Source: Firmicutes bacterium HGW-Firmicutes-1 (lineage in GTDB: Bacteria; Bacillota; Clostridia; Lachnospirales; Vallitaleaceae). From it: DNA of 64,000 nt. Numbering within the stretch: the first letter of the stretch is position 1; the number at the start of each line of letters is the position of its first letter. Of the stretch, positions 37,382-40,429 are shown piece by piece. Where the stretch lies: the NCBI GenBank assembly GCA_002841625.1, contig PHAG01000015.1, positions 1 to 64,000 on the forward strand. Direction: 5' to 3'. The notes beneath the pieces are model-generated. The model was not told the origin of the DNA. It worked only from the letters and a program-made list of their open reading frames with translations, and did not search any database. The position numbers were made by a program, and so were the translations under genes.

Positions 37382-40300
37382 GTGAATCGAGTTATGGCAG
37401 ATTGGGAAAACCCTGCAGTTATCGAAATTAACAAGGAAAAGCCACACGTGGAAAGTTTCCACTACAGCACGTTAGAACAGCTGAAAAAAGGTGACGCTTC
37501 TTCGTGGAGGTTAGATCTAAATGGTACATGGCATTTCAAATTATCTAAGAATCCTGATGTTAGACCTGCAGATTTTTATGAAGAAAGCTATGATGTTAGT
37601 GATTGGCAGAATATTGAGGTACCTGGTTTATGGCAGTTACAAGGGTATGAGGAAGAAGATCTGCCTTATTATTTGACCTCAGATTTTCCACCTTCCATGA
37701 ATTTAAAACATATACCTGCTATAAGTCACAATGAAAATGCAGTTGGATCTTATAAAAAATTCTTTGCTGTTCCGGGTGAATGGGCTAATAGAGAGGTTTT
37801 TGTTCGATTTGGGGCAGTAAAGTCGGCATTTTATATTTGGGTTAATGGGAATAGAGTTGGATATAGTCAAGGTTCTATGACGCCTGCTGAGTTTAATATT
37901 ACTAAATATTTGAAGTATGGTGATGAAAATACAATATCTGTTGAAGTTTATAGATACTCTGATGGAACATATTTAGAAGGGCAAAACACTTGGTTCTTAA
38001 GTGGAATATATAGAGATGTATATGTATACGCTGAACCTAAGATAAGAATAAGAGATTATTTTGTATCATGTAGTATGGATGATTCCTACGAAGATGCATA
38101 TTTAAAAATAGATGTTCAGGTAGAAAATCATGCTGCTGAAGACCAAGGGCTACAAATGTCTGCATATTTAGCAGAATCTATTAAAGATATAGAAGCTGGA
38201 TATTTGACCGAATGTAGATTGGTAGCACAAGTAGCTTGCAGAACAAAAGTGACGATGGAGTCAACAATAATCAACCCTAAGAAATGGACAGCTGAAGCAC
38301 CTAATCTATATGTTGGTGCAATTGTGCTTAAAAACAATACAGGACAAATCATTACTACTAAAAAATTTGTATTTGGTTTCAGAACCGTAGAAATTCATGA
38401 TGCCAAACTACTGGTGAATGGTAAATCAATTATATTAAAGGGCATTAATAGACATGACTTTGATCCGGATACAGGATTTGCAGTTTCAAAGGAGAGATAT
38501 GAACAAGATATTAAACTACTAAAGAGCTGCAATATCAATGCAATCAGAACCAGTCATTATCCTAATGATGCATATTTTTATGATTTATGTGATCAATATG
38601 GGTTATATGTTATGGATGAGGCAGATATAGAAACCCATCAACTGGAGAAGCATGCTAGCATATCTAACAATCCAGATTGGTGTCAGCCTATGGTAGATAG
38701 AATGATTAGAATGGTAGTTAGAGATAGGAATCATCCAAGTGTAATTATTTGGTCGTTAGGAAATGAAGCTGGATATGGAGAGAATTTTTTTGAAATGAAG
38801 AAGGCGGCAATTGAGATAGATAAAACGAGACCCTTTCATTATGAAGGTGATTTAGAACTTCTAATTAGTGATTTTATTTCCAAGCAAAATGCTTCACTTG
38901 AATATATTGATAAGGTTGGATGCGATAGAGATAACTATAAAAAGCCTGCGCTTCTTTGCGCTTATGGTCCAGGAAGGGAAAACGGCCTTGGCAATTTGAA
39001 AATGTATATGGATAAGTTCCAAAAGTATGATAATTGGTGTGGTGGTTTTATTTATGATTTCGCAGACCAAGCAATTAGGAAAAATGTTGATGGTAAAAAC
39101 ATTTGGTTATATGGAGGAGATTTTGGAGAAGAAAAAACAAGTGGGCATTTATGTGCGAGTGGTATAGTCGCAGCAGATCGATCACTGCATCCTACTGCCT
39201 ATGAGGTTAAAAAGGTCTATCAAGGATTTGAAGTGAAAGAGATAGACTTAATACTTAATATGGTTGAACTGTATAATCATAACTCCTTCATTAACATGAA
39301 TTTATATAAAATGAACTGGGAACTTCTTGAAGATGGAGAAGTCTTAAAACAAGGAGAACTTGAAGAAATGAATGTGGAACCGGGAGAATCTAAGATTATC
39401 ACTGTTCCTATACCAGAGTACAAAAAATTAGAAGAAGCAGAATATCATATAAGTATGAATTGTTATTTGAAAGAAGCGAATAATTGGGGTTCCGTTGAAG
39501 AGGTAATTGGTTGGGAACAGCTTAAGCTACCTAATGTTGTCCGGGCAAAAGAGAAGAAGGTATCTCAGAAGTCGTTAGCAGTTCATGATCGTAAAATTAA
39601 GGTTGAAGTATTAGGAGAAGGTTTTTCTTGTAGAATTTCAAAACTAACAGGAGATGTGACCTCCCTTGTTTTTGAAAATAAGGAGTATCTCTTATCCCCG
39701 CTGAAGCTTAATTTTTATAGAGCGGCTACGGACAATGATTTAAAAGAATCAAGTGAAAGAAAAGGTTTCATTTTCTTTGGAAAGGTTAATTGGAAAAAGG
39801 TTTCAGAAAGCTACAAGGTTCAAAAGGTGATTATTGAAAACAATAGATCTGAAGTAGTTATTAAAATTATGCGAAAGGTAAAGCATATTAAAAACAGCCT
39901 CATTACAGAATATACGATTGATGGCAATGGAGAGGTTTATGTTAGTCATCAATTAACACCAAAAAAGAATTTAATTAAATTTGGTAGCACAATGGAAATC
40001 AGCAATGAGTTCAATACCATTTCTTGGTTTGGTAAGGGCTTACATGAGAATTATAGCGATAGGCAGGAGGGTGCAAAGGTAGGAGTATATTCATGCCATA
40101 TAAATGAGTACATACATAATTACTTAAGACCACAAGAAAACTCTAATAGAACAGACATTAGATGGTTCTCAGCTACTACTGAAGAAGGTGAAGGATTGTT
40201 TTTTGAAGATGCAGGAAAAACACTGCTTAATATGAGTGCTTGGCCGTATACCTTAAAGGATTTAGATGAAGCTCATCATATTCATGCTTTGCGAATGAGA

Positions 40301-40429
40301 AACAGCATTACGTTGAACATTGATTATAAGCAAAAGGGTGTTGGTTATGATGAATCAAAACAAAAGAAATATCAACTTAGGAAAAATATAGAATATAAAT
40401 ATGGTTATAAGATTTGCCGGGCATTTTGA
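37382..40429 (+). CDS. Glycoside hydrolase family 2 protein (LacZ-like) with altered nucleophile site
   Basis: The 1015-residue protein aligns by eye over its full length with five-domain LacZ beta-galactosidases: a sugar-binding domain, two beta-sandwiches, a TIM barrel (about 330-620) and the C-terminal Bgal small chain. The acid/base Glu462 is intact in [12 protein letters not shown], as are RTSHYPND and DEADIETH. The nucleophile segment, normally LCEYAHAMGN, reads [10 protein letters not shown], putting Ala527 where the Glu should be. The usual LEDQD metal/sugar motif is LEGQN. It may be inactive, have another mechanism or bind sugar only. No signal peptide is seen. The GTG start has AAAGGAGG upstream. 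Confidence 0.85.

Follow-up and report, generated by a model that had tools for sequence, protein, structure and literature searches.

The nearest known counterparts of the protein analysed here are the LacZ-type beta-galactosidases of family GH2 (NCBIfam NF052611, Bga2A), which include E. coli LacZ, 3bga of B. thetaiotaomicron, and 6sd0 of T. maritima. The Klotho-type pseudo-glycosidases of GH1, which are animal membrane receptors, are a known case of a glycosidase domain that lost a catalytic carboxylate and was retained for binding. A 2025 survey that split GH2 into 23 subfamilies describes its nucleophile as an invariant Glu in loop 7 (PMC12243196). Parallels exist in other families. In GH112, the galacto-N-biose/lacto-N-biose phosphorylases have a beta-galactosidase-like barrel in which, compared with GH42, the place of the nucleophile has lost that role and the acid is kept (PMC8106489). 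In GH97, a small group of outliers in an otherwise active family lacks both base and nucleophile, as remarked from their sequences (PMC2670981). Among the literature matches listed, covered by title and start of the abstract and with most subscription papers outside the scope, there is no report of a GH2 clade without its nucleophile.

The protein is encoded in a window of 64,000 nucleotides, the whole stretch that we analysed, from Firmicutes bacterium HGW-Firmicutes-1 (contig PHAG01000015.1). It shares with the LacZ-type enzymes the five domains, the barrel fold, and the acid/base Glu. Unlike them, it has no nucleophile Glu, and further pocket residues are replaced (D201N, M502Q, Y503N, H540P, W568Y, F601L, and N604S in LacZ numbering). 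Its sequence indicates that the automatic label 'beta-galactosidase' is probably wrong. Whereas the Klotho proteins are receptors of animals, this is a bacterial GH2 protein in a TetR operon, and its clade adds evidence on selection, synteny, and regulon to the sequence remarks made for GH97.

The GH2 protein and its neighbourhood

The gene, the parts of its product discussed below, and the adjacent regulator are placed as follows in the window.

37382..40429, + strand: GH2/LacZ-type protein without catalytic nucleophile, 1015 aa; GTG start, open reading frame intact
37517..38038, + strand: sugar-binding domain Glyco_hydro_2_N, residues 46-219 (Pfam); contains Asn202 (LacZ Asp201)
38387..39232, + strand: TIM barrel Glyco_hydro_2_C, residues 336-617 (Pfam); Glu462 ends strand 4, Ala527 ends strand 7
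38960..38962, + strand: codon of Ala527, site of the LacZ nucleophile Glu537 (alignment with E. coli LacZ)
39614..40414, + strand: C-terminal Bgal_small_N domain, residues 745-1011 (Pfam); best conserved of the domains in the sister-species comparison (91% identity)
40458..41099, + strand: TetR-family regulator (Pfam), 28 bp 3' of the GH2 gene; orthologue at the equivalent place in G001 and G004

The frame is thus intact over the 1015 codons that an earlier note on this DNA had given. Pfam finds the five-module LacZ architecture with its TIM barrel from end to end, the modules not listed above being Glyco_hydro_2 (222-334) and LacZ_4 (628-717). No secretion signal was obvious by eye. The nearest solved relatives by sequence are beta-galactosidases, including 6sd0, 6s6z, 3bga, and E. 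coli LacZ. The protein scores 925 bits against NF052611, below the cut-off of 999; we rejected this as proof of non-membership because two Glu-bearing homologues (L010 and L034) also fall below it. A protein search of the window genome (G000, 3.95 Mb) gave one further match, a shorter GH2 protein (G000:C12:74421-75500; L002, L067) with a frame of 753 aa and relatives in G001 and G003. A galactokinase-type gene (C12:60045) lies about 14 kb from it.

Orthologues of the long GH2 protein were found in two genomes. The first is Firmicutes bacterium HGW-Firmicutes-7 (G001), a separate MAG and the other examined genome of the window's genus, hereafter the sister species; its protein (L033) is 82% identical, and since the handles G001 and L033 denote one contig, they enter the counts a single time. 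The other (L016, 52% identity) belongs to a second genus of the same family (G004) and lacks the first part of the protein; the G004 contig ends inside the gene. The order of genes 3' of the GH2 gene is identical in the three genomes: TetR, response regulator, HPt, histidine kinase, PHP, and NADH-hydrogenase-type genes, named by Pfam in the window except for the last, named from sequence by eye. On the 5' side, the window encodes an alpha/beta hydrolase, two GGDEF-type proteins (one a weak match), and a PilZ protein (33239-37118), possibly a cyclic-di-GMP cluster. Between its PilZ and GH2 genes the sister species has two further genes, one for a MarR-type regulator and one of 288 aa that matches no Pfam family (L033:6437-7814); neither is present at the equivalent place of the window (37119-37381).

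The nucleophile site and the pocket across the clade

In the alignment with E. coli LacZ (L060), Ala527 stands at the nucleophile Glu537 and Glu462 at the acid/base Glu461, as the earlier note had proposed, and the LEGQN that it read in place of LEDQD spans residues 198-202, Asn202 being the counterpart of Asp201. His540 corresponds to Pro530. The extent of the losses had been under-counted: besides the nucleophile, M502, Y503, W568, F601, and N604 are changed as well.

Other parts of the pocket persist. The window protein keeps H357, H391, E416, H418, N460, and E461 (LacZ numbering), and H357, R388, H391, E416, and N460 are kept in all three orthologues; the Arg of this set, Arg389 in the window protein, is the one described as assisting the nucleophile. 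The magnesium ligands, E416, H418, and E461, are complete in the window protein; H418 is Tyr in the sister species and E461 is Asp in the second genus. The acid/base place therefore holds a carboxylate throughout, a Glu at strand 4 in the window protein and L033 and an Asp in L016. The opposite holds for D201, H540, F601, and N604, the galactose (O6)/sodium side of the pocket, which read N/P/L/S in the window protein; H540 and N604 are replaced in 3/3 orthologues and D201 in 2/3. Judged from the alignment, the pocket has lost its nucleophile side and its galactose-O6/sodium side and has kept its acid/base side. In L016 (L051:10066-12708), both catalytic carboxylates depart from the family rule (Ala and Asp).

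A full-length AlphaFold2 model from a 6-sequence alignment was set aside (mean pLDDT 55.8). The barrel-only model, made from 8 sequences, has a pLDDT of 69.4 and a pTM of 0.75, places Glu462 and Ala527 at the ends of strands 4 and 7, respectively, and matches LacZ chains with a Z of about 25-27 (rmsd 2.4-5.5 over about 250-285 residues). Because pLDDT is below 50 for most of model residues 234-273 and for 203-210, a stretch close behind Ala527 (residue 201 of the model), we used this model for fold and strand placement, not for pocket geometry, and what it supports is the predicted fold only.

The Glu that ends barrel strand 7 is replaced by Ala in 3/3 orthologues and present in 55/55 other LacZ-type homologues (39 from the family and order, 11 from the phylum, 4 from viral contigs, and E. 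coli LacZ). These counts leave out three short GH2 proteins with Glu at the aligned place (L002, L004, L024) and the copies of the query and of L033 (L001, L003); L027, L035, L042, and L046 were trimmed to their aligned part. The three Ala proteins form one clade, with an SH-aLRT of 100 in a tree of 43 sequences and 100/100 in one of 19. The earlier note had named Glu in all close homologues as the outcome that would tell against it; instead, they share the Ala. Since the orthologues of the same and of the second genus come from separately assembled genomes, the Ala is neither a strain mutation nor a base error. The loss of the nucleophile is old, is consistent with a single origin, and is fixed in the three genomes examined.

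Further members were sought by protein searches of 22 family, 392 order, and 398 phylum genomes, with strict E-value cut-offs and at most 2 candidates scored per genome for order and phylum, and by motif-pattern searches of 392 order and 391 class genomes, the genomes overlapping among searches. Among the matches listed from the family, order, class, and phylum, which for the three protein searches numbered at most 30, 30, and 12 loci, no Ala member was found beyond G000, G001, and G004. One motif-pattern match, in G071, was discarded as chance, being a 19-codon stretch between stops. The protein matched 1446 plasmid records, all at less than 60% identity. In G004, pieces of another LacZ were read as two fragments, perhaps of one gene, with the nucleophile region outside both; one of them adjoins a TetR, an MFS_2 permease, and a melibiase-type gene.

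Selection, domain constraint, and control of the operon

The GH2 frame is under purifying selection at the protein level. Between the window and the sister species its dN/dS is 0.061 (0.045 for the barrel), although synonymous sites are near saturation (pS 0.67) and dS was not computable for two of the five domains. The neighbouring TetR has a dN/dS of 0.049, and the GH2 gene ranks sixth lowest among the 13 genes compared (range 0.034 to 0.215). These values, with the Ala shared by the orthologues of the same and of the second genus, support the view of the earlier note that the gene is selected rather than decaying.

Within this conserved frame, losses concentrate in the pocket. We compared the clade with 40 references, each left out in turn, over near-invariant columns, i.e., those with at most 2 deviants among references. 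The clade breaks 9 of the 14 such columns in the pocket against 11 of the 93 others (Fisher p 5e-5), and for columns invariant in all 40 references 6/11 against 5/53 (p 0.002), the list of pocket columns being our own choice from LacZ contacts. Pocket columns are broken in 3 of the 40 references (2, 1, and 1 columns). The total loss is high too: the window protein, L033, and L016 break 11/107, 15/107, and 12/94 near-invariant columns, the references a mean of 2.58 (median 2). With at most 1 deviant the clade breaks 10, 13, and 11 columns and the references 1.45 on average (maximum 8); with 0 deviants the figures are 6, 10, and 5 against 0.65 (maximum 5). The reference maximum in the first comparison belongs to the Glu-bearing L036 (G197), with 10/109 columns, 2 of them in the pocket. 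Because this protein breaks nearly as many columns as the clade, the total alone is a suggestive sign, and it is the focus on the pocket that marks the clade. L036 has Tyr at the LacZ His540 place and is another divergent member.

Of the near-invariant columns, 8 separate the window protein from that of the sister species, and the pocket accounts for 3 of these. Among six Glu-Glu pairs at 83-88% identity, five show no such difference and the sixth shows 1; five pairs at 66-76% identity show 0 to 4, always outside the pocket. By this comparison of sequences, the pocket is still varying within the window's genus.

The balance between domains differs as well. Among Glu-Glu pairs, conservation is higher in the barrel than in the C-terminal domain in 36/36 cases above 50% identity and in 780/780 at any identity, pairs that share ancestry and are not independent; for pairs of 50-55% identity, C-terminal minus barrel identity ranges from -0.14 to -0.31. 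The same difference is +0.055 between the two sister species (bootstrap 0.002 to 0.112) and -0.024 and -0.021, hence not positive, in the two comparisons with L016. The longest identical protein run between the two species, residues 803-851 (49 residues), lies in the C-terminal domain, and in the pair of 60-codon windows spanning it no more than 50-57% of third codon positions agree, so conservation acts on the protein. Of 36 residues common to the three clade members and rare elsewhere, 26 are at residue 737 or beyond, in a count where the N-terminus could not score because L016 lacks that part. In terms of aligned identities, the clade shows a shift of relative conservation away from the catalytic barrel, in the direction of the C-terminal Bgal_small domain.

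Upstream of the gene we identified the following elements.

37126..37159, + strand: terminator-like hairpin between the PilZ gene and the GH2 operon (consensus scan); weak, 2 such sites in the region against a mean of 1.7 in shuffles
37308..37336, + strand: sigma-70-type promoter TTGACA-17-TATAAT, 12/12 consensus bases, extended TG -10 (consensus scan)
37340..37364, + strand: inferred TetR operator, an interrupted inverted repeat 3 bases after the -10 box (sequence motif and occurrences in other genera)
37366..37374, + strand: Shine-Dalgarno-like sequence (by eye)

The sister species also has a full-consensus promoter at the equivalent relative place (L033:7928-7956), and the operator motif is conserved there. 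We searched five genomes for this motif and used matches with 0-1 mismatch. It occurs without mismatch once each in G000, G001, and G005; the G005 site directly precedes a TetR homologue followed by an MFS_2 sugar permease. G008, from the genus of G005, carries it with 0 mismatches before a TetR and a permease, which we named by its resemblance to the G005 permease. In G017 there are two sites with 1 mismatch each, one preceding a TetR-permease pair and the other a melibiase-type gene. The two G017 sites are on different contigs (L065:2669-2693 and L087:4670-4694), a small regulon readable from sequence. No motif was found in G004, whose contig ends inside the GH2 gene. With 2 mismatches there were matches in G001 (C74) and G005 (2518606); at up to 2 mismatches the reversed control pattern also matches, once in G005 and twice in G017. 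The motif stands 3 bases after a TATAAT box in 6/6 places, and this position, before TetR-permease and melibiase-type genes, makes it likely to be the operator of this TetR group; its distribution suggests a galactoside-type regulon. We found neither a Melibiase-family gene in G000 or G001 nor a permease at their GH2 loci; both genomes have an MFS_2 permease elsewhere and a galactokinase-type gene. The regulated promoter of its own that the earlier note ascribed to the gene is supported by the full-consensus promoter and by the recurrence of the putative operator in other genera. The TetR gene is probably co-transcribed with the GH2 gene and probably encodes the ligand-responsive repressor of the operon.

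Readings of the locus

We favour, with a probability of roughly 70%, a selected, non-catalytic LacZ pseudoenzyme that works by binding and derives from an ancestral galactoside-regulon beta-galactosidase. A single loss of the nucleophile, in the ancestor shared by the window's genus (g1) and the second genus (g4), would have been followed by the loss of much of the nucleophile side and of the O6/sodium side of the pocket, with fold, domains, synteny, and control kept. The present protein would no longer hydrolyse beta-galactosides. In the presence of a sugar, probably a galactoside, the operon's TetR would release the gene. The protein would then act by binding, its target being this sugar, another ligand, or a partner, and its C-terminal domain would have the central part. 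As in a pseudoenzyme, the catalytic residue is lost across the clade, not in one strain, and the protein is under purifying selection. The earlier note had left three options, another mechanism, another substrate, or sugar binding without cleavage. Binding without cleavage, of a sugar or of another ligand, agrees best with a pocket whose losses go beyond the nucleophile and which is still changing inside the genus; another mechanism seems less likely. Against a pseudoenzyme count the kept part of the pocket and the acid/base carboxylate, which a pure scaffold would not need, and the fact that the three altered pockets differ from one another, in a clade of three sequences of which one ends at a contig end.

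Were catalysis retained, an inverting phosphorylase (or inverting transferase or hydrolase) would be conceivable: the Glu462/Asp would protonate the leaving group, and phosphate or another anion would occupy the nucleophile space, held by Arg389 and, in the window's genus, by the new Arg532 of a GPGREN loop. Arg389 and a carboxylate at 462 are indeed present in 3/3 proteins, so that the acid is there and the nucleophile carboxylate is not. There are precedents: the phosphate site of GH112 galacto-N-biose phosphorylase lies near the place of the GH42 beta-galactosidase nucleophile (PMC8106489), and one inverting GH97 enzyme has Gly where GH27 has its nucleophile (PMC2670981). GH112 is another family, however, and the candidate phosphate loop of the window protein is not conserved in the second genus, where Arg532 (present in 2/3) is Ser and the acid is Asp. 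The replaced H540 and N604 and, in 2/3, D201, which are galactose/sodium contacts in LacZ, also argue against it, as do pocket positions that differ even between sister species and a barrel identity below that of Glu-bearing pairs of similar overall identity; we find this mechanism unlikely. Still less probable, given the same drift of the pocket, sister species included, is a glycosidase whose unusual substrate supplies a group in place of the nucleophile, or in which a bound anion takes that part. The acid/base carboxylate and part of the -1 subsite would remain available to it, and for the GH97 outliers that lack base and nucleophile both inactivity and a new kind of catalysis were considered (PMC2670981), but no barrel carboxylate is found among the residues common to the three proteins and rare elsewhere. 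Glu533, in the changed loop, was rejected as replacement nucleophile because Glu-bearing sister sequences have it too.

Two readings would deny the protein any function or the Ala its reality. A gene on its way to loss, intact only through recency, would explain the missing catalytic residues and a locus without the permease that adjoins TetR homologues in relatives. It is very improbable given a dN/dS of 0.061 despite near-saturated synonymous sites, the diverged third positions under the identical 803-851 stretch, and the conserved promoter and operator motif. A sequencing or assembly error at codon 527, for which we found no evidence, is refuted by the Ala in two other separately assembled genomes, alongside other pocket changes.

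Returning to the binding pseudoenzyme, its role could lie in the operon itself. The dead LacZ would be the signalling half of its own operon, binding the inducing sugar in the old pocket or the repressor through the newly constrained C-terminal domain, and would set the switch by titrating the ligand or as a co-regulator. This proposal from sequence is doubtful as it stands; if true, a sugar sensor would have been made from the enzyme that the regulon once induced. In this small clade, the nucleophile was lost and the 1015-residue protein was kept under selection and under a TetR-type switch, with constraint shifted towards its C-terminal domain. The clade offers a clean natural example in which to ask what use a LacZ has when it is unable to cut.
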